Shown here: positions 39,228 through 58,408 of the stretch, one piece after another
Position numbering within the stretch: the first letter of the stretch is position 1
Layout: every line of letters begins with the position of its first letter
Assembly (NCBI GenBank): GCA_023266575.1
Contig: JAHFPV010000005.1
Location: 1-64,000, forward strand
Origin: Sphingobium sp.
GTDB lineage: Bacteria; Pseudomonadota; Alphaproteobacteria; Sphingomonadales; Sphingomonadaceae
Direction: 5' to 3'
Length of the DNA stretch: 64,000 bases
Notes under the pieces: generated by a model
Told to the model about the DNA's origin: nothing
The model's input: only the letters and a program-made list of their open reading frames with translations
Databases searched by the model: none
Translations under genes and position numbers: made by a program

Positions 39228-39677
39228 ATGCGCTATTTTCTCGACACCGAATTTAACGGCTTTGGCGGCGCGCTGATCAGCGTCGCGCTGGTGCCGGAAC
39301 ATGGCGACCAGGAATTTTACGTTGCGCTGCCACTGCCCGACGATGTCGAGCCATGGGTGGCGCAGCATGTCGTCCCCTATCTGCGCCATGTGCCGCCGGG
39401 CATATATCTGGAACTCAACCGGGTGGATGCGGCCGATCATGTCGCCGCGTATCTGGAGGGGGATGACGATCCGCTGATCATCGCCGATTGGCCGGAAGAT
39501 CTGGCCCATTTCTGCGCCCTGCTGGTCAAGGGACCGGCGCTGATGGCCGGGGTCGATTTCGGTCTGCGGTTGGAACTGATCAACGCCGCGGGCTTCAGCG
39601 CGGCCGCCAACAGCCGGGTGCCTCACAACGCCTTGCATGACGCGCGGGCGCTGCGAGACTTTTACTTCGCCGATTGA
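39228..39677 (+). CDS. DEDD-superfamily 3'-5' exonuclease-like protein
   Basis: 149 residues. Exo I motif FLDTEFNGFGG (DxE), a central acidic residue in GVDFGL, and Exo III HNALHDARALRDFY point to an RNase T/DnaQ-like fold of the small exoribonuclease group (Rv2179c type). Substrate probably RNA, not known. Its 3' end overlaps the end of the convergent membrane-protein gene by 16 bp. Confidence 0.82.
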   Translation: MRYFLDTEFNGFGGALISVALVPEHGDQEFYVALPLPDDVEPWVAQHVVPYLRHVPPGIYLELNRVDAADHVAAYLEGDDDPLIIADWPEDLAHFCALLVKGPALMAGVDFGLRLELINAAGFSAAANSRVPHNALHDARALRDFYFAD

Positions 39678-41452
39678 GGCACAGCCGCCCGACCGATCCG
39701 CGCCCGTTCCAGCCACCACAGCAGCGCACTGACCAGCAGCCAGCCCAAAGCGAACGGCCAGGACGATCCGGGGCTTGGCTGCCCGGTCGCCGCCCGGTCG
39801 TCCTGTGCTGGCGGGCGCAGCATCAGCATGGCGTCCCGATCCCGCGCTGCGCGCATGACCGGCAGGGCATTGGCGGGCTGGACGTAGAAGGGCGTCGGCT
39901 GGCTGTCTCCGGGTTTGCGCAGCAAATGCCAACCCGCCTTGTCGGGCCAGAAAGCGGCGCAACCGCCCACGGGCAGTAGCTTCGCCATCCTTCCATCCGG
40001 GCGTTCGACCTGTGCCGCAGCGGACAGGCCGCACAGGACCATGCGCCCGCTCGCCCAGCCTGTCGTGGTGATCGGGGTCATGCCGGGCGCGGGGCGCGCG
40101 ACAGTCGCCAGCATCGCACTCCACCAGTCGCCATAGAGGGTCCGATAGCCTGTCAACGTCAGCGCATAGCTGTCGATCCCGGTGAAGAGCGCAACCCGCC
40201 CGGTGCCGACCGCCCGCCAGGCCGCCAGCGTCGCGCCGCCAGCATCGCGGAGTAACGGCACGGCATCGCCGCCCTCTGGTGTCAGGCCAAGGCGGCTGAT
40301 CTCTGGCAGCATCTCGTCGGGCAGGGCGACATCGGCTGGCACATCGTCGCTGCCAATGCCCTGACGGGTGCGGGCGATGGCGGGCGTGGGAGGCTTGGGC
40401 AAAGCGAGCGGTGCCACGCCATCCTTGCCTGCCAAGCCAAAGCCCAGCGCCTGCCACTGGCCGCGCGTTGTCGCATCGATCGGCCCGCTGACGCGCAGGA
40501 TCAGGCCCAGCCCGTCCCGCACCGCGCCCATGACCACGCCGCGCCGCGCCGCCCAGCTTCGATCGTCGATGATGGCGACATCGAATCGCCGCAGCGTCGC
40601 GCCGTCGATCGTGATCGGCGCATCACCCAGCGCGATCCCGCCACCTGCGCTCATCTGCGTCGTGACGGCAAAGCCTGCATCGGTGGCCCAGCGACGCAAA
40701 TATTTGATTTCGGCATTGGGCGCGGCGGAGAGGATCAGCAGGCGCGGGGCGGTGCTGTCGGCGACCAGCACCGGCACGCTGGCCTGTTCGACGGCGCGTC
40801 GCCCATCTCGCACGCGCAGCGCGAACAGCACGGCTCCGGCGGCACGCGTCGTGCCGGTCAGCGTGAAGCGCCCATCGGCATCAGCCTGAACGCTGTCCGT
40901 CGCCTGCCCGGCGGGGTCCAGCAACTCGACGGTGGCGCGGGGCAGGGCGCTTAACTGGCCGCCGATGCTGAAACTGCTTCCCGGCGCAACGATCGCTGGG
41001 GGAGCGACATGGCTGATCCCCGGACGCTGCGGCGGCGGGTCGAAGCGGACGGCAACAGTCTTGGCCGCCTCCATGTCGCGCGGCGGCAGGCCGTTGCCCA
41101 GCACGATAATCTCGCTGGTGCCGGGATGCCGACGCAGCGCGGTCGCAAGGTCCGGCACGCGCTCACCAGCCCCAATGTCCGGGGATTCAGGCAGCAGGAT
41201 GAGCGGGCTGCCCATAGCGGCAAGGCGCTGCGTTCCGTGCGTTGCAATCCGCAGCGTGGCGCGACCCGTCGTCACCGCAGGCGGGAACAGCGTAAGGAAC
41301 AGCAGCACCGCGCAGATTGGCTGGAGCAACAGCAGCGCGATCAGGCGCTTGGGCGATGGCGCAGCGGCGCTGCGATACCACAGGATCAGCCGCGTGCTCG
41401 CCAGCAGCACGGCCACGCCCAACAGGCTAGCGGTGATCCATGCCGCGGTCAT
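39662..41452 (-). CDS. Membrane protein of the MoxR cluster, probable GATase-like domain
   Basis: 596 residues. Two N-terminal helices (AAWITASLLGVAVLLASTRL and LIALLLLQPICAVLLFLTLF), a periplasmic or cytosolic central part with a carboxypeptidase-regulatory-like beta domain (about 175-235), a flavodoxin/GATase1-like segment (RLLILSAAPNAEIKYLRRW to about 340) and a C-terminal anchor helix (WPFALGWLLVSALLWWLERA). No catalytic Cys-His pair is obvious, so it is probably structural. It overlaps the DUF4175 gene by 4 nt and ends the cluster. Confidence 0.7.
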   Translation of the reverse strand: MTAAWITASLLGVAVLLASTRLILWYRSAAAPSPKRLIALLLLQPICAVLLFLTLFPPAVTTGRATLRIATHGTQRLAAMGSPLILLPESPDIGAGERVPDLATALRRHPGTSEIIVLGNGLPPRDMEAAKTVAVRFDPPPQRPGISHVAPPAIVAPGSSFSIGGQLSALPRATVELLDPAGQATDSVQADADGRFTLTGTTRAAGAVLFALRVRDGRRAVEQASVPVLVADSTAPRLLILSAAPNAEIKYLRRWATDAGFAVTTQMSAGGGIALGDAPITIDGATLRRFDVAIIDDRSWAARRGVVMGAVRDGLGLILRVSGPIDATTRGQWQALGFGLAGKDGVAPLALPKPPTPAIARTRQGIGSDDVPADVALPDEMLPEISRLGLTPEGGDAVPLLRDAGGATLAAWRAVGTGRVALFTGIDSYALTLTGYRTLYGDWWSAMLATVARPAPGMTPITTTGWASGRMVLCGLSAAAQVERPDGRMAKLLPVGGCAAFWPDKAGWHLLRKPGDSQPTPFYVQPANALPVMRAARDRDAMLMLRPPAQDDRAATGQPSPGSSWPFALGWLLVSALLWWLERARIGRAAVPQSAK

Positions 41453-43572
41453 GGCGTGCCGCCTCCCATCGCGCCTAGATACCTTGCGCCGCTGGCGTCA
41501 GCGGGTTGGCGGCGGGTCAGATGCGCGGGTGGCCGCGCCATCGCGGTCCACAGCAAGGCGCGCAGCTTGGCGCGACATGCGACGCAGGCCGGGTCGCGCC
41601 GTACCGCGTCGATCGCGCCCGACAGCGCCAGCGGATCGGGCAGATGCGCGGCCTGCCCCCGCGCCCAGCGATCGAGCGCGTCCAGCGCGATCGGCCCCCG
41701 GATCGCACCCGGCCCATCGCCCAAAGCGCGCCAGGCTGCGGCGGCGGGACCATCGCGTCCCTCGACAGGCGCAATTCCCAGCACCCGGCTCGCCAGCCCC
41801 TCCCGCTTGCCGGTCATGCGGCGGCTGGCGTCGATCGGCGGCAGTTCCGGCCCGACCCGCGACAGGAAGATGCGCGTCGCCTGCTGCACCTCCTTGATGA
41901 AGCGCAGTGCGCGATAGGCGTAGGGCAGCGCCAGATCGGGATGCCCCTGTTTCAGTTGCAGTTCGGACTGCCACATTTCATCGACCGCCTTTTTCAGGAT
42001 CGCGCGGGTTTCGGGATCAAGGCTGGAGGCGGGCGAATCGTCATGGGGGTGGCCGAAATCGGCCAGCACATCCTCCGGCGCCCCAAAGCCGGGCGCGGGC
42101 TGGCGCGGCAGCCCGCCATGATCATGGCCGTCATCGTCGCTATGCTGCTCGCCGTCATTGGTGGGCGGTTCGGGCGTGCCTTCCTCCTCGCCGCCCAGAA
42201 ACTGGCTATAGCGGCCGCGCAATATCTGCTCGTCGCCGCCAATGCTGGCGGAACGGGCAAGATAGCGATCGGCGGCAAGGCGGCGCTTCTGCTTGATCAG
42301 CGTTTCAGCGTCGATGATGATCTGGCGCTGGCTGCGGAAATAGGCGGGCAGGGTGGTGTTGACCATGCCCTGGAGGCCGCTGCTTTCGGGCTGTTTGGGC
42401 GATGGCCAGCGCAGGATCAGGCTGGGGCCGCGCACTTCGTTGGCGACGGGCTGGCGCGTGTCCCGCACGATCAGCTGCACCACCATATCCCCGCCCGCGC
42501 CAAAGCCCAGAGCGCTGAAATCCAGCCGGGGGGTAAAACGCCGGTCGCGCGCCGGACCGCTGCCGGACAGAGCGATCTCACGTTCGCTGAAGGTCACATT
42601 CTCCCCTTCGCCGATCGCCAGCGTGACGCGCAGTCGGGCAGTGGCGGCGACGCCATAGTCGTCCGTCGCGGTAAAGACTGGCGACCAGCTACGCTGGCCT
42701 TGCGCCACCATCGTCAGGCTGGCGGCGGGACTGATTGCCCTCACCTGCGGCGGGCTATCGGCAATGGCATCGATCCGGTGGAGTGGCGGCGTCGGGCCAC
42801 GGCCAGAGGCTGGATCGACACGATAGAGAAAGGATGCGTCGAGCAAGCGGCTTGCAATCCAGTTGGCACCATCCCGGCGCAGGGCAAGCCGCGCACCACC
42901 GACCGGCTGGATCGCGGGGACAGTCGCTTGTGGATCAAAACGCAACGTCCATTCGATCCGCGATCCAATCGGCGCGCGGGCGTCCAGCGACGCTGAATCG
43001 CGCGGCGGCAGGCCGGTATAGGCTGGCGGGATGATCCGCAAATTTTGGGCGACCAGACGCGGGATGCCGGGCGTTGCTGGGAGTGCTTCGGTGCTGGGGG
43101 CCAGCGTCGGCGGGCCGTGGCCGGGGCGAGGCCAGAACAGCACCAGTCCGATCACGATCAAGCCTGCGATCCACAGGATCAGGATCAGGCGGCGCGACCA
43201 GTCGGGATTCAGGCTTTGTGGGCTGTCGCCGTCGATCCGGTCGGCCAGACGCGCCTGCTGGAGCCGTTCGAGTGGACCGAGCATGGCCGGGTCAGCGAAC
43301 AACAGGTCAGCGCTGTCCTCCAAATCCGGTCGATTGGCATCCAGCGCGCGGACCAGCCAGCGCTGGTCGTAGCGCTGGGCGCGATGGCGGGCGACCAACA
43401 TGGCGATCGCCGAACCGATCACGACAATCACTACGGCAGCGACCATGTCGGACAAGCGCCAGCCGATTGCGGCGAGCGCCAAAATCAGCGGGATGGCAAG
43501 CGCCAGACTGTCGGCTAACACCCGACGTCTTGCAGGGGCCGTCCAGCGCCTAAGCAAATCCCCCGCGCTCAT
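41449..43572 (-). CDS. DUF4175 family membrane protein of the MoxR cluster
   Basis: 707 residues. Two transmembrane helices near the N-terminus (ALAIPLILALAAIGWRLSDM, VIGSAIAMLVARH) and a third at about 130 (LILILWIAGLIVIGLVLFW), then a large soluble part with beta-sandwich character (IPPAYTGLPPRDSA) and a C-terminal helical part with a His/Asp-rich loop (EQHSDDDGHDHGGLP). The IPPAYT block is typical of DUF4175-like proteins. Overlaps both neighbours by 4 nt. The His/Asp loop may bind metal, which is speculation. Confidence 0.75.
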   Translation of the reverse strand: MSAGDLLRRWTAPARRRVLADSLALAIPLILALAAIGWRLSDMVAAVVIVVIGSAIAMLVARHRAQRYDQRWLVRALDANRPDLEDSADLLFADPAMLGPLERLQQARLADRIDGDSPQSLNPDWSRRLILILWIAGLIVIGLVLFWPRPGHGPPTLAPSTEALPATPGIPRLVAQNLRIIPPAYTGLPPRDSASLDARAPIGSRIEWTLRFDPQATVPAIQPVGGARLALRRDGANWIASRLLDASFLYRVDPASGRGPTPPLHRIDAIADSPPQVRAISPAASLTMVAQGQRSWSPVFTATDDYGVAATARLRVTLAIGEGENVTFSEREIALSGSGPARDRRFTPRLDFSALGFGAGGDMVVQLIVRDTRQPVANEVRGPSLILRWPSPKQPESSGLQGMVNTTLPAYFRSQRQIIIDAETLIKQKRRLAADRYLARSASIGGDEQILRGRYSQFLGGEEEGTPEPPTNDGEQHSDDDGHDHGGLPRQPAPGFGAPEDVLADFGHPHDDSPASSLDPETRAILKKAVDEMWQSELQLKQGHPDLALPYAYRALRFIKEVQQATRIFLSRVGPELPPIDASRRMTGKREGLASRVLGIAPVEGRDGPAAAAWRALGDGPGAIRGPIALDALDRWARGQAAHLPDPLALSGAIDAVRRDPACVACRAKLRALLWTAMARPPAHLTRRQPADASGARYLGAMGGGTP

Positions 43573-44717
43573 GGACTGGTTCCCCGGTTGCGACGGGTCG
43601 CCAGCCAGCGTTCGGCGATGAGCAGCGCCGCGATCAGCATGGCGAGCCACGGGCGCACATCCTGCGGCGGCTGGTCATAAGCGCGCGCGCCAGTGAGCGG
43701 GGCATAATCGGCTGCGGCGACCCGCGCTGGCACTGGCGGGGCGGGTGCCAGCACAGTGCGAAGCTGTGCTGGAAAATCAGCCTCCAGCAGGACTGGCATC
43801 GTGGCCGGTGTCAGGGGGCGGGTGAAACGCAACAGCCGCCCGCGGCCCACCGGCATCGCCTCGACCAACGGCACGCCGAGGGGATCATGCCATAGCAAGG
43901 CGCGCGGCTTGTCCGCAGGGGCCTGCATGTCCGAAGCAAGCAATGCTGTTCCACCTTGCGCAATCCATCGGTTCAGCCTGTCCGGCATCGTACCGCCGCC
44001 CAGCCAGATGAGGAGGTGGCGCTGGTCCGGCAGTGGCGCATCGAGTGAGCCAATGTCGATCGTCGCTGCGCGTCCAGCAGGTTGCCATGCCAGCGCAGCG
44101 GCGCGCGGATAGCGGACGCCGCCACGATGCTGGTCATCGTGCCGGATCGACAGCAACGGCACGATGACAGGCAGGGTGCGTGGCGCGGGCATGACACCCG
44201 GCACGATGCGCCAATCCACCTTGCGAGAGAGGCGCAGGCGGTCGGCATCGGCGCCTTCAATCACTTGCGGCGTGATGATGGTCAGCGGAACCCTTGCCGG
44301 AATGTCCGCGTCGAGCTGGCGGATCAGGCTGGCAACCGGCAGTGTCCCGGTCGGCGATGGCTGGTCGATCGGCGGAAAGCCGGGCGCGAGCCATACGGTT
44401 TGGACGTCGCCAGTCGGCGCGCGCGTTGGATCGACACCGGGGACCATCGCGACGACCGGCGTGCGGTCTCCTGCCCCGAACAGCACCGGATGGGCGAGCC
44501 ACAAGGCCACCAGCGCCAACAACATAAGGCGCAGCAACAGCAGCGCCCATTCGTCGAACCGCAGTCGGGATCGGGGCTTGGGCTTCTGCCGCAGCCAGCG
44601 CAAGGCGGCGAAATCGGTCGGCACCTGTTCGCTGCGCCGGGCGATATGGATGACCAGCGGGATGACGAGCGCCAGCAGCGCCGCCAGTGAGCCGGGCAGC
44701 AACAGGGCTGGCGTCAT
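43569..44717 (-). CDS. BatA N-terminal-domain membrane protein
   Basis: 382 residues. The N-terminus is the BatA/aerotolerance domain: a first helix (LAALLALVIPLVIHIARRSE), a short loop (VPTDFAALRWLRQKPKPRSR) and a second helix (EWALLLLRLMLLALVALWLA). The rest is soluble with a Rossmann/GATase-like look (LLIWLGGGTMPDRLNRWIAQ) and a C-terminal helix. In Bat-type operons such proteins sit in the inner membrane and work with MoxR and VWA partners. Overlaps DUF58 and DUF4175 genes by 4 nt. Confidence 0.8.
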   Translation of the reverse strand: MTPALLLPGSLAALLALVIPLVIHIARRSEQVPTDFAALRWLRQKPKPRSRLRFDEWALLLLRLMLLALVALWLAHPVLFGAGDRTPVVAMVPGVDPTRAPTGDVQTVWLAPGFPPIDQPSPTGTLPVASLIRQLDADIPARVPLTIITPQVIEGADADRLRLSRKVDWRIVPGVMPAPRTLPVIVPLLSIRHDDQHRGGVRYPRAAALAWQPAGRAATIDIGSLDAPLPDQRHLLIWLGGGTMPDRLNRWIAQGGTALLASDMQAPADKPRALLWHDPLGVPLVEAMPVGRGRLLRFTRPLTPATMPVLLEADFPAQLRTVLAPAPPVPARVAAADYAPLTGARAYDQPPQDVRPWLAMLIAALLIAERWLATRRNRGTSP

Positions 44718-45607
44718 GAATATTCCGCCGCTTCATGCGCACCGAACAGGCGGCGCAGGGGCAGGTCGATCGGCTGGTCCAGTATATGAGTGGCATAACG
44801 GATGCCCATAGCATCGAGCCGGTCGTGGAGCGCGTCCCGCGCCGCGCCGAAACGGGCCAGAAATTCGCTGCGCAACGCCGCCCCATCCGCCAGCAACTCC
44901 TCGCCAGTTTCAGGGTCACGGAAGCGGTAGCCGCCATCAAACGGAAAATCGCGCTCGGCGACGGTCAGCATTTCGATCACGAGCGTTTCGCGCCCCGCAG
45001 CGGCCAGCTTTTCCGCCAGATCGACCGCGCCGGGATCGAAACAGTCGCTGAGTAGGATGACGAGATCGCGCGCGCCGATCCGCTCCCACACCGGCCCAAG
45101 CTGATCCTCCCGCGCAAAGCCGCCTACCGCGTCCACCGCGATCAGGTCCAGCAACAGCCGGTCGCGCTGGCGAGCGCCGCTGGCAGGGGGCAGCAGCGTC
45201 AGCCCCTGATCGCTCAGCGCCATCCAACCAAAACGGTCGCCCTGCCGCATCGCCAGATCGGCGATGCAGGCGGCCAGCGCTTTTGCCGCGTCGAAGCGGC
45301 GATAGTCGGGGCGGGCAGCATCGGCCTGCGTCATGGACGCGCTGGCGTCCGTCAATATCCATACCGCGACCGGGCTTTCCCGCTCTGCTTCGCGCACGAA
45401 GAATTTGTCCGACCGGGCGTAGAGCTTCCAGTCGATCTGGCGCAACTCGTCGCCGCGCTCATAGGCGCGATATTGCGCGAATTCGAGACCCGCACCCCGG
45501 CTGTGACTCTGGTGCAGCCCAATGCCGTGCGACCCCACTGCCCGGCGCGTGACGAGGCGCAGGCTTTTCAGCCTGCTGCGCACGTCCGGGGGAATGAGAT
45601 CGACCAC
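44714..45607 (-). CDS. DUF58 domain (VWA-like) protein
   Basis: 297 residues. The DUF58 signature GLEFAQYRAYERGDELRQID followed by WKLYARSDKFFVREAE is complete. The VWA-type MIDAS motif is visible as TDASASM (DxSxS). Partner proteins of MoxR ATPases are usually of this kind. I chose GTG 45607, which is 8 nt after the moxR stop; no ATG fits the domain start. A cytosolic adaptor between MoxR and the membrane proteins is the likely role. Confidence 0.88.
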   Translation of the reverse strand: MVDLIPPDVRSRLKSLRLVTRRAVGSHGIGLHQSHSRGAGLEFAQYRAYERGDELRQIDWKLYARSDKFFVREAERESPVAVWILTDASASMTQADAARPDYRRFDAAKALAACIADLAMRQGDRFGWMALSDQGLTLLPPASGARQRDRLLLDLIAVDAVGGFAREDQLGPVWERIGARDLVILLSDCFDPGAVDLAEKLAAAGRETLVIEMLTVAERDFPFDGGYRFRDPETGEELLADGAALRSEFLARFGAARDALHDRLDAMGIRYATHILDQPIDLPLRRLFGAHEAAEYS

Positions 45608-45615
45608 CCGCAAGC

Positions 45616-46605
45616 TCAGCTGAGCGGGACGGCGCGGAGCAGGGCGGCCACGACGTCGTCGGCGCTGCGTCCTTCCGCCTCCGCCGCAAAGGACAGCAGC
45701 AGGCGGTGCCGCATCACCGGCGCGGCCAGCGCGACGATATCCTCGCGCGTGGCGGCCAGCCGCCCATGCAGCAGCGCGCGCGCCTTGGTCGCCAAGATCA
45801 GCGACTGGCCGGCGCGCGGCCCTGCGCCCCATTTCACATATTTGCGGATATCGTCCGGCGCGCCTTCGCCGGGGCGGCTGGCGCGGACCATGCGGGTCAC
45901 CCAGCGCAGCAGATCATCGCTGAAATGCACCTGCCGCACCCAGGTCTGCAACGCCAGCACCTCCTCGCCATGCATCACGGCAGGGACCGCGTTCGCCTTT
46001 GCTCCCGTCGTCTGGGCGAGGATATCCATCTCCTCCTGCTCGGTCGGATAATCGACGCGGATGTGGAGGAGGAAACGGTCCAATTGCGCTTCGGGCAGTG
46101 GATAGGTGCCGGCCTGTTCCAGCGGATTTTGCGTCGCCAGCACGAAGAAGGGCGCGGGCAGCTGGTGCGTAACACCGGCATAGCTCACTGTCTTTTCCTG
46201 CATCGCCTCCAGCAGTGCCGCCTGCGTCTTGGGCGGGGTGCGGTTGAGTTCGTCGGCCAACAGTAGGTTAGTGAATACCGGTCCTTTCTGGAAACGGAAG
46301 CTACGATGGCCGGTGCCATGATCTTCCTCCAGCAATTCGGTCCCCAAAATGTCGCTGGGCATCAGGTCGGGCGTGAACTGGACGCGGCGAAACTCCAGTT
46401 TGAGCGCTTCACCCAGCGACCGGACGAGCAAGGTCTTGCCCAGCCCCGGCACCCCCTCCAGCAGGCAATGCCCGCCCGCCAGCAGGCCGATCAGCAATTG
46501 TTCGACAACCTCCCCTTGCCCCACGATCGCCTGGCCGATTGCAGACCGCAATTCGGTAAGGCGGGCAAGCTGGCCCTGAATATCGGCTTCGGTGATGCTG
46601 GTCAT
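45616..46605 (-). CDS. moxR: MoxR-family AAA+ ATPase
   Basis: 329 residues. Walker A GVPGLGKT at 51-58, Walker B LLLADELNRTPPKTQAALLE, sensor 1 VLATQNPLEQAGTYPLPEAQ and the arginine-finger region DRFLLHIRVDYP define the MoxR subgroup. MoxR proteins act as chaperones in metal-cofactor insertion or complex maturation. It opens a five-gene run with overlaps or very short gaps; a palindromic repeat at 46633-46720 separates it from the upstream DUF4159-TldE-TldD genes, so expression may differ between the two halves. Confidence 0.94.
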   Translation of the reverse strand: MTSITEADIQGQLARLTELRSAIGQAIVGQGEVVEQLLIGLLAGGHCLLEGVPGLGKTLLVRSLGEALKLEFRRVQFTPDLMPSDILGTELLEEDHGTGHRSFRFQKGPVFTNLLLADELNRTPPKTQAALLEAMQEKTVSYAGVTHQLPAPFFVLATQNPLEQAGTYPLPEAQLDRFLLHIRVDYPTEQEEMDILAQTTGAKANAVPAVMHGEEVLALQTWVRQVHFSDDLLRWVTRMVRASRPGEGAPDDIRKYVKWGAGPRAGQSLILATKARALLHGRLAATREDIVALAAPVMRHRLLLSFAAEAEGRSADDVVAALLRAVPLS

Positions 46606-46632
46606 GACGAGTCCGTTACCTCAATTAATAAC

Positions 46633-46720
46633 GTCATTCCCGCGAAGGCGGGAATCCATCTCCTAACTTTGCGTGCCGGGATGGGGTGGGAGATGGATCC
46701 TCGCCTTCGCGGGGATGACG
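46633..46720. repeat. Long inverted repeat (GTCATTCCCGCGAAGGCGGG family)
   Basis: Outer arms GTCATTCCCGCGAAGGCGGG and the matching CCTCGCCTTCGCGGGGATGAC are each imperfectly palindromic, and ATCCATCTCC pairs with GGAGATGGAT inside. It lies between the DUF4159 stop and the moxR start and may stall or process the transcript. Confidence 0.8.
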
Positions 46721-46732
46721 AATGCCTACAAA

Positions 46733-47428
46733 TCACACCGACAGCGCATACATCACGATATTGACCCCGAATTTGGTATTATCCTCGGCCAGGAACCGTT
46801 TGTTGCGCCAGTCATAGTCCCATTCGCAACCATAATCCTTGTTGCTGTACAGCACGCCCAGCCGCCCTTCGATCTCGATCCCTTTCAGATAGTCATGGAC
46901 CAGATCATCACCCCAGCCGTTCAATTCCAGGCCGGTATTGGGTGGCCCGTCAAATTTGAAGAAAGACCGGTAGAGCGGGTGGGCATTGGGCAGTTGTTTC
47001 AGCGCCCTAGCCCCGAAAATCTTGCCCATCTGCGCCTCAAACGATCGGGCGAACAGGCCGTCAATATCGTGGTTGCAATCATCGACCAGCACGAAGCCGC
47101 CATTGCGGACATAGCGTTCGAAATTGCGCCGTTCGGCGGGCGAAAACTCGACCAGCTTATGCCCCGCGAGATAACAGAAGGGCGCCGTCAGCATTTTGGG
47201 GTCCGACAGGGCAATGACATGCTCCTTCGGGTCCACCCGCAACGTCGTATAGTCGATCAGCGACGTGATCAGGTTGGACGGCATCCGCTGGTCGACATCC
47301 CAGTCGCCCGAATCATAGCGCAGCCGCGTGAACCAGAAATCATAGCCCCCGGCGGCGGCGAGCGGCCGGGCCAGCATTGCGCTGGCCAGACCACCCGCCA
47401 TCAACCGAAGAAAATCGCTCCGCGTCAT
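46733..47428 (-). CDS. DUF4159 exported protein
   Basis: 231 residues. A signal-like N-terminus (MTRSDFLRLMAGGLASAMLA, then RPLAAA) resembles a Tat signal but has only one arginine in the key position. The mature part YDFWFTRLRYDSGDWDVDQR, LSDPKMLTAPFCYLAGH and NGGFVLVDDCNHD matches DUF4159, a GATase-like fold. The domain is usually fused to the BatA-type membrane protein in MoxR clusters of other alphaproteobacteria, but here it is a separate secreted protein next to TldE. Function unknown. Confidence 0.88.
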   Translation of the reverse strand: MTRSDFLRLMAGGLASAMLARPLAAAGGYDFWFTRLRYDSGDWDVDQRMPSNLITSLIDYTTLRVDPKEHVIALSDPKMLTAPFCYLAGHKLVEFSPAERRNFERYVRNGGFVLVDDCNHDIDGLFARSFEAQMGKIFGARALKQLPNAHPLYRSFFKFDGPPNTGLELNGWGDDLVHDYLKGIEIEGRLGVLYSNKDYGCEWDYDWRNKRFLAEDNTKFGVNIVMYALSV

Positions 47429-47444
47429 ATCGCGCGCATTGGCC

Positions 47445-48779
47445 TCACACCGCGTCCGACAGTGACGTGAAGGTGAAGTCGCGCAGTTTCATCGGCGGGA
47501 CGACCATCGGCGCATCCGCTTCGTCGCCCTTTACCCGGACGGGCTTGCCCAGTTCCTCGACATTGTTGAGCATGATGACCGGGGATTCGTTGAAGCGGAA
47601 ATTCTTGATCGGATATTTGATCTGGCCATTTTCGATATAGAAAGTGCCATCACGGGTCAGGCCCGTGAGCAGCACCGTCTGCGGATCGACCATACGGATA
47701 TACCAGGTGCGTGACACCAATATGCCGCGCTCGGTCGTGCGCACCAGATCGGCGGTCGTTTTCGTGCCGCCGGTCATGATCAGATTGCCCGGCTGCGCCA
47801 TGGCGGGCTTGCCCTGCTTTTGCGACCAGTAGCGCGAATATTCCATGTTCACGAGCTTGCCATTTTCGACGATCGGCATTTTCCCGCGCGGCAGGCCTTC
47901 TTCGTCCCACGGATAGACAGCCGCGCCCGGATAGGCCGGATCGGCGAAGAAATTGACCTGCGGCCCGAACACCTGTTCGCCCAGCTTGTTGCCGCCGCCC
48001 TTTTTCGACAGGAAGCTGCGGCCTTCGTCAGCCGATCGCGCGTCGAAATAGAAGAACATGAACTGGATCAGGCCAGCGGCCGCCGCCGGTTCCAGGATGA
48101 CGGTATATTTGCCCGGTTCCAGCGCCTTGGCTTCGGCTGACGCACTCGCCTTGCGCATGGCGATGCGGATATCCTCACCCGCGTTGAAGGTTGCGACGTC
48201 CTGCACATTATGCCCGACCCAGCCGGACCCGCGGCCATCCTCGGTACGGACGGTGCAGGTATAATCGGCGCTGGTGCCGGTCTGGTAACCGTAATTGCCC
48301 TTGCTGTTCATGAAGGCGACGAACCCGGCCTGATCCTCCAGATAGCCCGCCGCGATCAGCTTTTCGGCGCGGCAGGGCGCGATCGAATCGATCGCCACCT
48401 TGGCACGATAGTCTGCGGTGATCCCGGCGGTGGCGGCGCTATATGTGGGCGTCGGCTTGTAGGTCTGTCTCTCGACCGCAGGCATGAATTCCGGGTTTTC
48501 CGGGGCCAGCTTGGCCAGCTCCTCCGCCCGCCGCACCACGCGCTCCAGAGCGGCGTCGTCAAACTGGTTGATGGTCGCGATGCCGACCCGCTTGCCATAG
48601 GCGACCTGCACCGACAGTTCGATATTGTCGGTGATGCCTGCGGTCGACACGTCGTTGCGGGCGAAGCGCACATTGCCACGGATCGAACCGGTCAGCTGCG
48701 CGGTACATTCGTCCGCCTTGGAAAAGCCCACGACCTTGGTCAGGATCGCCTTGGCCTGTGCTTCGGAAAGGATGCTCAT
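47445..48779 (-). CDS. TldE/PmbA-like subunit of a TldD/TldE protease
   Basis: 444 residues of the U62/TldD-PmbA family. It lacks the HExxxH zinc motif, as TldE does, and keeps the family fold (GITDNIELSVQVAYGKRVGI, then VILEPAAAAGLIQFMFFYFD and GLTRDGTFYIENGQIKYPI). No signal peptide, so if it works with the Tat-type TldD upstream it must be cytosolic or hitch-hike through the Tat pore. Start ATG 48779 has AGGGAGA upstream; TldD ends 19 nt before. Confidence 0.92.
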   Translation of the reverse strand: MSILSEAQAKAILTKVVGFSKADECTAQLTGSIRGNVRFARNDVSTAGITDNIELSVQVAYGKRVGIATINQFDDAALERVVRRAEELAKLAPENPEFMPAVERQTYKPTPTYSAATAGITADYRAKVAIDSIAPCRAEKLIAAGYLEDQAGFVAFMNSKGNYGYQTGTSADYTCTVRTEDGRGSGWVGHNVQDVATFNAGEDIRIAMRKASASAEAKALEPGKYTVILEPAAAAGLIQFMFFYFDARSADEGRSFLSKKGGGNKLGEQVFGPQVNFFADPAYPGAAVYPWDEEGLPRGKMPIVENGKLVNMEYSRYWSQKQGKPAMAQPGNLIMTGGTKTTADLVRTTERGILVSRTWYIRMVDPQTVLLTGLTRDGTFYIENGQIKYPIKNFRFNESPVIMLNNVEELGKPVRVKGDEADAPMVVPPMKLRDFTFTSLSDAV

Positions 48780-48798
48780 ATTTTCTCTCCCTGACCGA

Positions 48799-50433
48799 TC
48801 AACCGAGCGAACGGGCGGTGTTGATGACGTTGATGCCGTTGAAGCGCGCGGTGCTGGAGCCATGTGACACGGCCGAAACCTGCGCAGGCTGGCCCTTGCC
48901 GTCGAAGAAGGAACCACCCAGGCGATAGTCGCTGGCGTCGCAGACCCCGGCGCAGGCGTTCCAGAATTCCGGGGTGCGGATCTGGTAGGCCACATCCTCG
49001 ATCTGCTGGGTGATCTTGCCCTGCTTGATCTCGTAGAAAAGCTGTCCGCCAAATTGCGCGTTGTAGCGCTGCTGGTCGATCGAGAAGCTGCCGTCGCCGA
49101 TGATGTAAATGCCATCCTCGACATTGGAGATCATGTCGGCGACGCTTTGCTTGGCCTTGCCGGGTTCCAGTGACACATTGGCCATGCGCTGGAACTGGAC
49201 GTTGGACCAACTGTCGGCATAGCAGCAGCCGTCGCTCTCGCTCTTGCCCTCGATATGCGCCTGATCGCGGATGGCCTGATAGCCGACCAGCTTGCCGTTG
49301 CGAATGAGATCCCATTTCTTGGTCTTGACGCCTTCGTCATCGAAGGCGACCGCGCCCAAGCTGCCGGGCTGGGTCTTGTCCGCGACGATATTCACCTTGT
49401 CGCTGCCATATTGGAAATTGGCCTTCAGCTTGTCCATCGTGGCAAAGCTGGTGCCGGCATAATTGGCTTCATAGCCCAGCACCCGGTCGAGTTCGAGCGG
49501 ATGGCCGACCGATTCGTGGATGGTGAGCCAGGTGTGCGACGGGTCCAGCACCAGATCATATTTGCCCGGCTTGACCGACGGTGCCTTGATCTTCGCGCGC
49601 GCCTGTTTGGCGGCGGCGATGGCGTCCTCCTTCATGTCATAGCTGTTGCCATAGACGGTGACGCCGTTGGGCAGCACGGTCTTGCCCGACGCCGCGCCAT
49701 CCAGATATTCAAAGCCCAGCCCCATCGGCGCGGACAGGCCTTCGCGCACGCGGAACTTGCCGGTCGCCTTGTCGACGGCGGTGACCTCCATCGGCGCCCA
49801 GATGCGGTGGACATCCTGGTCGATATAGCTGCCGTCCGTGCTGGCAAAATATTTCTGCTCGTTGACCAGGAACAGGATCGAGCGGATGAAGTCCGCGCCT
49901 GCATCCATGGCGGCGGCATTGACGCCCATCAGCAGGTCGACCTTGTCCTTGATCGGCACGGTCATGCTGTTCTTGACGATCGGCGTGCGCCAGCTGACCT
50001 CGCCCGCGCCCTTGACCGGGGCGAGCTGCACCGGGGCGGACTGGGTCGGCGCATTGGCCTTGGCAATGGCGACCGCCTGGGTCGCGGCCTTGGCCACGGC
50101 TTCCTTGGTCATCTCGTTGGTGGCGGCAAAGCCCCATGCCCCGCCAGCAATCACGCGGATGCCAACGCCGGTCGATTCGGTGTTGACGATATTTTCCACA
50201 TTGCGTTCGCGGGTGATGACGAACTGGCGCAGGTAGCGGCCGACGCGCACGTCGCAATAGGTTGCGCCTGCGCTCTTGGCCGCGTTCATCGCTGCGTCGG
50301 CCAGCGACTTCTTGACCGCGACGTCGATGACGCTGCTCAGTTCCTCTGCTGCGATGACCTTGCCGAACATCGACGGCAGGATCAGGCCGCCCACGCCCAT
50401 GGTGCCAAAGGCCAGAAAATCTCTTCTGTGCAA
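48799..50433 (-). CDS. TldD-like metalloprotease with twin-arginine signal
   Basis: 544 residues. The zinc motif HESVGH (His306, Glu307, His311) identifies the catalytic TldD-type subunit. A TTG start at 50433 is decided by GGAG placed 7 nt upstream and gives the N-terminus (M)HRRDFLAFGTMGVGGLILPS, a twin-arginine signal; classical E. coli TldD is cytosolic and has none. TldD/TldE heterodimers cleave unfolded peptides through a narrow cleft, for example in microcin B17 maturation. First gene of the eight-gene cluster, behind a palindrome at 50582-50608. Confidence 0.93.
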   Translation of the reverse strand: MHRRDFLAFGTMGVGGLILPSMFGKVIAAEELSSVIDVAVKKSLADAAMNAAKSAGATYCDVRVGRYLRQFVITRERNVENIVNTESTGVGIRVIAGGAWGFAATNEMTKEAVAKAATQAVAIAKANAPTQSAPVQLAPVKGAGEVSWRTPIVKNSMTVPIKDKVDLLMGVNAAAMDAGADFIRSILFLVNEQKYFASTDGSYIDQDVHRIWAPMEVTAVDKATGKFRVREGLSAPMGLGFEYLDGAASGKTVLPNGVTVYGNSYDMKEDAIAAAKQARAKIKAPSVKPGKYDLVLDPSHTWLTIHESVGHPLELDRVLGYEANYAGTSFATMDKLKANFQYGSDKVNIVADKTQPGSLGAVAFDDEGVKTKKWDLIRNGKLVGYQAIRDQAHIEGKSESDGCCYADSWSNVQFQRMANVSLEPGKAKQSVADMISNVEDGIYIIGDGSFSIDQQRYNAQFGGQLFYEIKQGKITQQIEDVAYQIRTPEFWNACAGVCDASDYRLGGSFFDGKGQPAQVSAVSHGSSTARFNGINVINTARSLG

Positions 50434-50718: not shown

Positions 50719-50795
50719 TGGTCGGGGAAAGAGGATTCGAACCTCCGGCCCCTGCCTCCCGAAGACAGTGCTCTACCAGGCTGAGCTATTCCCCG
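50719..50795 (-). tRNA. tRNA-Pro (anticodon CGG)
   Basis: Minus-strand cloverleaf: acceptor CGGGGAA/TTCCCCG, D-arm GCTC...GAGC, anticodon stem CTGTC/GGCAG with loop TTCGGGA (CGG), T-arm GGAGGTTCGAATCCTCT, discriminator A, encoded CCA. 77 nt. Confidence 0.97.
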
Positions 50796-58172: not shown

Positions 58173-58249
58173 GCGGGTGTAGCTCAGTTGGTTAGAGTGC
58201 CGGCCTGTCACGCCGGAGGTCGCGGGTTCGAGCCCCGTCACTCGCGCCA
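58173..58249 (+). tRNA. tRNA-Asp (anticodon GTC), copy 1
   Basis: GCGGGTG acceptor, D-arm AGCTCAGTTGGTTAGAGT, anticodon loop CTGTCAC (GTC), T-arm GCGGGTTCGAGCCCCGT, discriminator G, encoded CCA. 77 nt; identical to copy 2. Confidence 0.98.
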
Positions 58250-58331: not shown

Positions 58332-58408
58332 GCGGGTGTAGCTCAGTTGGTTAGAGTGCCGGCCTGTCACGCCGGAGGTCGCGGGTTCGAGCCCCGTCAC
58401 TCGCGCCA
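58332..58408 (+). tRNA. tRNA-Asp (anticodon GTC), copy 2
   Basis: Identical in all 77 nt to the copy at 58173-58249 and 82 bp downstream of it. Presumably one transcript, processed into two tRNAs. Confidence 0.98.

Follow-up and report, generated by a model that had tools for sequence, protein, structure and literature searches.

The window considered here is a stretch of 64,000 nucleotides from a Sphingobium species (contig JAHFPV010000005.1), and the subject is a series of eight close-set genes within it, all on the minus strand between positions 39662 and 50433, that joins a TldD/TldE peptidase pair to a MoxR-type ATPase and a group of membrane proteins. The genes are listed in Table 1. 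Translations and gene calls confirm the positions given in a first-pass annotation, which had been made from the sequence alone and had also named the components. Six of those names (TldD, TldE, DUF4159, MoxR, DUF58 and BatA) are borne out by Pfam. The PmbA_TldD domains 1 to 3 lie above the Pfam cut-offs in both TldD and TldE, members of the TldD/PmbA family of metallopeptidases (COG0312). The name DUF4175 must be softened to DUF4175-like: the window protein scores 19.5 bits with PF13779 against a cut-off of 27.3 bits, and five of the 22 family members scanned match at an E-value of 0.001 or better (the best at 1.7e-11). The label "GATase-like", given to the last gene, has been dropped, as none of 18 members of its family has a GATase Pfam match at an E-value of 0.01, a level at which a remote fold match is still possible.

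An AAA_3 MoxR adjoining a DUF58 protein with a DxSxS motif places the cluster among the MoxR-VWA/DUF58 kind. Across the DUF58 family, the first and final positions of the motif are invariant (D and S, each in 73/73), and the middle one is S in 69 and T in 4. Each of the three membrane proteins (BatA-type, DUF4175-like and last) has hydrophobic segments at its N-terminus; no such segment was found in MoxR or DUF58. In the BatA-type protein of the window, the N-terminal anchor is the only part matched. I infer the orientation of these three proteins in the membrane from their charged loops.

Table 1. Coordinates and characteristics of the eight-gene cluster and of the repeat within it (positions in the window).
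Feature	Position	Strand	Length (aa)	Characteristics
TldD-type metallopeptidase	48799..50433	-	544	TTG start; Tat leader MHRRDFLAFG...; HExxGH; Pfam
TldE/PmbA-type partner	47445..48779	-	444	Pfam; no RR leader, no HExxxH
Stand-alone DUF4159 protein	46733..47428	-	231	PF13709, 188 bits; single-arginine Tat-like leader MTRSDFLRL
REP-like inverted repeat in the DUF4159-MoxR gap	46633..46720	.		Two opposed 22-nt arms
MoxR-type AAA+ ATPase	45616..46605	-	329	AAA_3, 210.6 bits; AAA_lid_2, 54.4 bits
DUF58 protein, VWA-like, DxSxS	44714..~45607	-		Pfam; start at GTG 45607 or TTG 45613
BatA N-terminal (two_anch) membrane protein	43569..44717	-	382	PF07584, 43.7 bits; TIGR02226, 71.6 bits; two N-terminal hydrophobic segments
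DUF4175-like membrane protein	41449..43572	-		N-terminal hydrophobic segments and a large soluble part
Last membrane protein of the cluster	39662..41452	-	596	Two N-terminal hydrophobic segments; relative at the same place in 63/80 loci

The first-pass annotation had started TldD at a TTG codon and had seen in the resulting N-terminus a leader for twin-arginine translocation (Tat). Both claims hold. They were assessed in 80 loci, the best 80 of 243 TldD relatives in the species-genome collection, so that the counts concern close relatives; these loci span Alphaproteobacteria, Lysobacterales, Massilia and Bacteroidota. In every one of them the motif RRx[FIL] occurs within the first 12 residues of TldD, and in every one the codon two before the RR is a start codon (TTG in 36, ATG in 25 and GTG in 19), which supports the TTG start. 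The open frame of TldD offers no alternative start upstream in 37 of the 80 loci. A GGAG lies 7 nt upstream of the TTG in the window, and the comparison of relatives shows conservation of the protein to start near that codon. A wrong start is ruled out by the agreement of start codons together with the point where conservation begins.

Export of TldD, predicted from this leader, is very likely. All 28 of the genome entries that were checked contain TatC; G190 and G273, both among them, are apparently the same genome. The genome of the window contains a second TldD copy that has no such leader, and PmbA is also present elsewhere in it. Several operons hold two or three copies of TldD with the leader (hereafter Tat-TldD) and sometimes two of TldE (L038 12987-14639; L070 12988-16067; L124 2661-10543; L121 4709-12439).

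The catalytic features of TldD are also constant: HExxGH and two C-terminal cysteines are kept at all 80 loci. In TldD of E. coli the ligands of the metal are the two histidines and Cys454, and TldD/E is believed to admit unfolded peptides through a narrow pore and to trim them from the N-terminus (PMC5810440). The conservation of the motif and of both cysteines agrees with these ligands. An alignment of the E. coli protein with that of the window brings together HExxxH and a downstream E and D (HESVGHPLELD against HEAVGHGLEGD), and the two systems have in common the presence of both subunits, the C-terminal cysteine and a TldE that lacks HExxxH. E. coli TldD is the nearest solved structure (5nj5; E-value 9.7e-17, 64 bits). 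In contrast to it, the TldD of the window has a Tat leader, a remote sequence, and fixed partners in MoxR, DUF4159 and the membrane proteins. Because its scores fall far under both NCBIfam cut-offs for TldD equivalogs of the E. coli and archaeal types (114 against 635 bits, and 79.8 against 513 bits), I consider it to represent a separate subfamily.

The partner subunit is different in both respects. RR was found within the first 15 residues in none of 78 distinct TldE sequences, in accord with the earlier claim that TldE has no signal of this type, and HExxxH was found in none of the 78. Since no TldE has an RR leader, the simplest reading is that it is exported together with TldD, a prediction that I consider likely to be right.

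The arrangement of the genes is as constant as the leader. All components detected lie on the same strand at all 80 loci; all eight are present in 62, seven in 6, six in 2 and two to five in 10, where the sequence ends early. The order is that of Table 1 in 78 loci, and the two exceptions (L077 and L083) are due solely to a higher-scoring TldE copy upstream. Gaps of 60 bases or fewer, overlaps included, separate TldD from TldE in 73/80 loci, TldE from DUF4159 in 42/77, DUF4159 from MoxR in 48/75, MoxR from DUF58 in 53/74, DUF58 from BatA in 65/68, BatA from DUF4175 in 67/67 and DUF4175 from the last gene in 63/63. In three Bacteroidota genomes (G365, G407 and G423), the eight families are kept together but reordered. 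This comparison of neighborhoods upholds the proposed association of TldD/E with MoxR, and it is near certain, to judge by gene order and content, that the eight genes form one unit.

In the TldD tree, sequences group largely by order: 7 changes are required where 6 would be the least possible. Taken singly, the Sphingomonadales require three changes, and two are required for each of Lysobacterales, Cytophagales and Caulobacterales. Horizontal transfer of the cluster is suggested, not proved. The alignments were made from subsets of the sequences (17 rows in A1, 28 in A2, 18 in A3, 25 in A4 and 22 in A5).

In 30 of the 80 loci, the flanks were searched for a conserved substrate gene beside the cluster, and no such gene was found among open frames of 80 aa or longer; peptides below that length lie outside the search, and in many loci little sequence follows the last gene. 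Six flanking families are common to at least three of the 30 loci: a scattered ABC-type ATPase (5 loci), extra copies of TldD (4), three families in three Sphingobium loci, and a long frame in L032, L079 and L084.

The most surprising results concern DUF4159. Compared with their Bacteroidota orthologues, TldD and DUF4159 each have a median identity of 67%, TldE and MoxR one of 55%, and DUF58, BatA, DUF4175 and the last gene one of 20-29% (medians measured from L005, in groups that I chose, over matches above a length limit, with 6 Bacteroidota rows for BatA and 12 for the last gene). In the operons of Alphaproteobacteria and Lysobacterales, DUF4159 has a single-arginine, Tat-like leader in 52 of 55 cases and an RR leader in the other 3. 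None of the three reordered Bacteroidota clusters has a leader on DUF4159. In three other Bacteroidota genomes DUF4159 is unlinked to the cluster, and there, few as the cases are, its leader is of the classical RR type in all three. An apparent Sec leader is present at the start of two generic DUF4159 proteins from Bacteroidota.

DUF4159 exists in a second form as well. In all five of the cousin loci scanned with Pfam, BatA and DUF4159 are one protein; the DUF4159 of the window, free-standing at 231 aa, does not belong to this fusion type. That a protein fused to BatA elsewhere should yet be conserved here to the degree of TldD suggests a physical bridge. The observations fit, without proving, that DUF4159 is an exported partner able to ride with TldD/E and to dock on a BatA platform.

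The distribution of the system was examined in samples of genomes. Among 120 genomes of Pseudomonadota, Tat-TldD (at an E-value of 1e-60) occurs in 4 and DUF4159 in 29. The four with Tat-TldD are exactly those in which DUF4159 lies outside a long frame, on the same strand and within about 1.7 kb. In the other 25, DUF4159 is part of a frame of 918-1222 aa, and none of these genomes has Tat-TldD. In the window's own family the occurrence of Tat-TldD is patchy, 6 of 149 genomes, all six with a DUF4159 placed in that same way, on the same strand and outside a long frame. Two genomes (G000 and G024) are in both samples, leaving 8 distinct TldD-positive genomes with a free DUF4159 close by. Eight genomes of the family have DUF4159 and no Tat-TldD, six with long frames and two (G141 and G126) with frames that are short or broken. 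Because of these two, the rule that free DUF4159 occurs only with TldD is clean among the 120 Pseudomonadota and less so in the window's family, one genome of which (G131) has both forms of DUF4159. The unit extends past Sphingomonadales to Lysobacterales and Bacteroidota and is rare close to home.

Tat-TldD was found in 14 of 148 genomes of Bacteroidota, the phylum of Galbibacter (G276, the genome of L066). DUF4159 adjoins it in 7 of the 14, on the same strand and within 2.5 kb, is divergent from it within 8 kb in 3 and is on another contig in 3. Those on another contig are of the cluster type, with profile scores of 393-424 bits as compared to 57 and 60 bits for two generic proteins. In the last, G289, the sole DUF4159 match lies elsewhere and looks generic. 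DUF4175 of the cluster type (at an E-value of 1e-40) occurs in 13 of the 14 TldD-positive genomes and in none of the 134 TldD-negative ones (Fisher test, 9e-18, uncorrected for relatedness). Four of the 13 have it at a distance from TldD, on another contig in G364, G418 and G422 and about 120 kb distant in G410 (contig ends checked in part). A smaller set of picked genomes gives the same result: DUF4175 exceeds 300 bits in 21 of 22 TldD-positive genomes and in none of 28 TldD-negative ones, the best of which reaches 97 bits. I chose these 28 negative genomes, whereas the sample of 148 was unpicked.

The cousin loci allow comparison with known systems. The fused BatA-DUF4159 loci seen here are presumably of the kind of the RL3499-RL3502 operon of Rhizobium leguminosarum, which has in common with the window MoxR, DUF58 and a BatA/DUF4159 component. 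They differ in the long frame that contains DUF4159 and in the lack of Tat-TldD in the 25 genomes. Five alphaproteobacterial MoxR-DUF58 loci with the fusion (L127-L131) are only distantly related to the module of the window: cluster profiles detect MoxR in them at 359-423 bits and DUF58 at 104-119 bits, but neither BatA nor DUF4159 in any of the five, where Pfam finds both. A phmmer search with the window proteins against six short fused loci gave no match; longer stretches gave MoxR and DUF58 by profile. The aerotolerance (Bat) operon of Bacteroides and Leptospira has a DUF58 member and a BatA with a double anchor, and is not known to have a component related to TldD/E or DUF4159. It is like the cluster of the window in having MoxR and Bat proteins together (PMC3557215). 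The Rhizobium operon has been tied to cell shape and the integrity of the envelope (cited in PMC5118466 and PMC3893208).

A precedent similar in gene content is an uncharacterized operon of Stenotrophomonas maltophilia, NIPOLPBK_01784-01792, noted in an RNA-seq study of 2020 (PMC7688217). It is described there as containing two TldD genes, a MoxR-like ATPase, a putative protease, a membrane protein and three hypothetical proteins, and some of its genes were down-regulated in biofilm in all seven isolates. TldD proteins are said in that account to inhibit DNA gyrase; the available portion of its text mentions neither a Tat leader nor wider conservation. Matched by gene content rather than by sequence, this operon is very likely the same system. 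Beyond it, I met no further description of the system among the literature matches listed, and the search returned no paper with TldD, TldE and MoxR together and none with DUF4159. TldD and twin-arginine occur together in a single paper, a survey of hot springs. The operon is real and widespread, and it is uncharacterized.

I propose that the eight genes encode one envelope system, a reading to which I would give an even chance. TldD would acquire its metal and bind TldE while still in the cytoplasm; the two, folded and perhaps accompanied by DUF4159, would then cross the inner membrane through Tat on the leader of TldD. In the periplasm the pair would trim unfolded or modified peptides from the N-terminus, like cytoplasmic TldD/E of E. 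coli. DUF4159 would join the peptidase to the membrane, a link suggested by its conservation at the level of TldD and its fusion to BatA in cousin operons. The three membrane proteins of the cluster would form a platform in the inner membrane, with periplasmic domains, where the peptidase does its work, and MoxR and DUF58 would use ATP on the cytoplasmic side to assemble or remodel it. The roles given to platform and ATPase are informed guesses, somewhat more apt to be wrong than right. The role of the system as a whole is likely to be upkeep of the envelope or processing of peptides within it.

Several observations weigh against this proposal. In G365 and G423, from wider samples, one TldD copy each has RK in place of RR. 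The N-terminus of TldE is generally less hydrophobic than that of TldD (medians 1.12 and 1.69), but the two ranges overlap, so a Sec leader on TldE is conceivable. DUF4159 has a leader in none of 20 Bacteroidota operons and none in Massilia, and it may be cytoplasmic there (the Massilia protein, L070, was counted as leaderless since the pattern match labeled "R..F other" fell upstream of its start). In G289 (L126 7826-10736), a Tat-TldD that is divergent in sequence (645 bits) is paired with a TldE lacking RR, and DUF4175 of the cluster type is absent; TldD/E of the exported type thus occurs outside this operon, and the membrane module is no strict requirement for export. Finally, BatA-DUF4159 fusion loci with MoxR and DUF58 occur in genomes that have no Tat-TldD.

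The pattern of leaders invites a more specific idea, which I offer as speculation that is probably wrong. DUF4159 may lose its leader by decay once it is made beside TldD/E, so that a folded TldD-TldE-DUF4159 complex would cross via Tat on the leader of TldD alone. In the periplasm, DUF4159 would then attach the peptidase to a platform of BatA and DUF4175 that MoxR-DUF58 drives from the cytoplasm, giving ATP-coupled trimming of a peptide substrate common to Proteobacteria and Bacteroidota. The conservation of DUF4159 at the level of TldD, the apparent dependence of its leader on linkage and its fusion to BatA are new here.

Other accounts of the cluster deserve consideration. MoxR and DUF58 might instead be a cytoplasmic helper that loads TldD with metal or folds it before Tat, the membrane proteins serving to hold the export-competent complex. 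Pairs of MoxR and VWA proteins are said to help dedicated complexes to mature (PMC3893208), a role for MoxR in placing metal in the MIDAS domains of Bat proteins has been postulated (PMC3557215), and Tat carries folded proteins (PMC6085387), all of which would suit the loading of TldD, as would the DxSxS motif (S or T in the middle) of all 73 DUF58 proteins. However, the 25 genomes with long-frame DUF4159 lack Tat-TldD, yet MoxR and DUF58 adjoin that gene in all five loci read (one of them, L130, from G131, which has Tat-TldD elsewhere), and E. coli TldD freed of its metal becomes active again once metal is added (PMC5810440). I consider this account unlikely. I would put no more weight on the notion that two modules, the exported peptidase on the one hand and a MoxR/Bat-type module of the envelope on the other, share an operon only for co-regulation under the same stress and make no physical contact. 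The dispersal of the parts in G364, G410, G418 and G422 would fit such independence, and so would the report that the related RL3499-RL3502 operon alone gives envelope phenotypes in Rhizobium (cited in PMC5118466 and PMC3893208), but co-occurrence that is nearly strict even when the parts are dispersed, with DUF4175 in none of the TldD-negative Bacteroidota genomes, is tighter than shared regulation needs, and the fusion of DUF4159 to BatA, taken with its TldD-like conservation, suggests contact.

It is quite improbable that the RR leader is unused and that TldD/E stays in the cytoplasm to act as an ordinary TldD/E. TldE and the DUF4159 of Bacteroidota operons have no RR leader, as this would predict, but an RR held beside the start codon at all 80 loci is difficult to reconcile with disuse, the window's genome already has a leaderless TldD and a PmbA, and unlinked DUF4159 carries an RR leader of its own in three genomes of three. 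As for the adjacency being an accident of gene order in Sphingobium, the rarity of the cluster in its own family is what an accident might produce, but the retention of order, of presence and even of reordered clusters as far as Bacteroidota refutes it, and I give it practically no credence.

Some features of the surroundings may be recorded. An arm of the repetitive extragenic palindrome (REP)-like element at 46633-46720 recurs, with up to 2 mismatches, in 10 of the 80 loci, and lies at about the same gap in several other Sphingobium and Lysobacter loci, which hints at repeated insertion of the element into the operon. A gene for tRNA-Pro(CGG) lies directly upstream of TldD at 50719-50795. 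Simple insertion of the cluster at this tRNA is not shown: in G261, a genome of the same genus in which no Tat-TldD was found, the flank with the tRNA and thyA is about 224 kb from the flank with the exonuclease, and short loci lack the tRNA. Two genes for tRNA-Asp(GTC), 82 bases apart, are at 58173-58249 and 58332-58408.

TldD/E is widespread and its general role is unclear; modules of MoxR, DUF58 and Bat proteins are widespread and have no agreed client. The operon gives each a candidate partner, and it places a TldD/E enzyme, by prediction, in the periplasm. Because the leader of DUF4159 appears to change with the linkage of its gene, the operon may also provide a natural test of multi-protein hitch-hiking through Tat.

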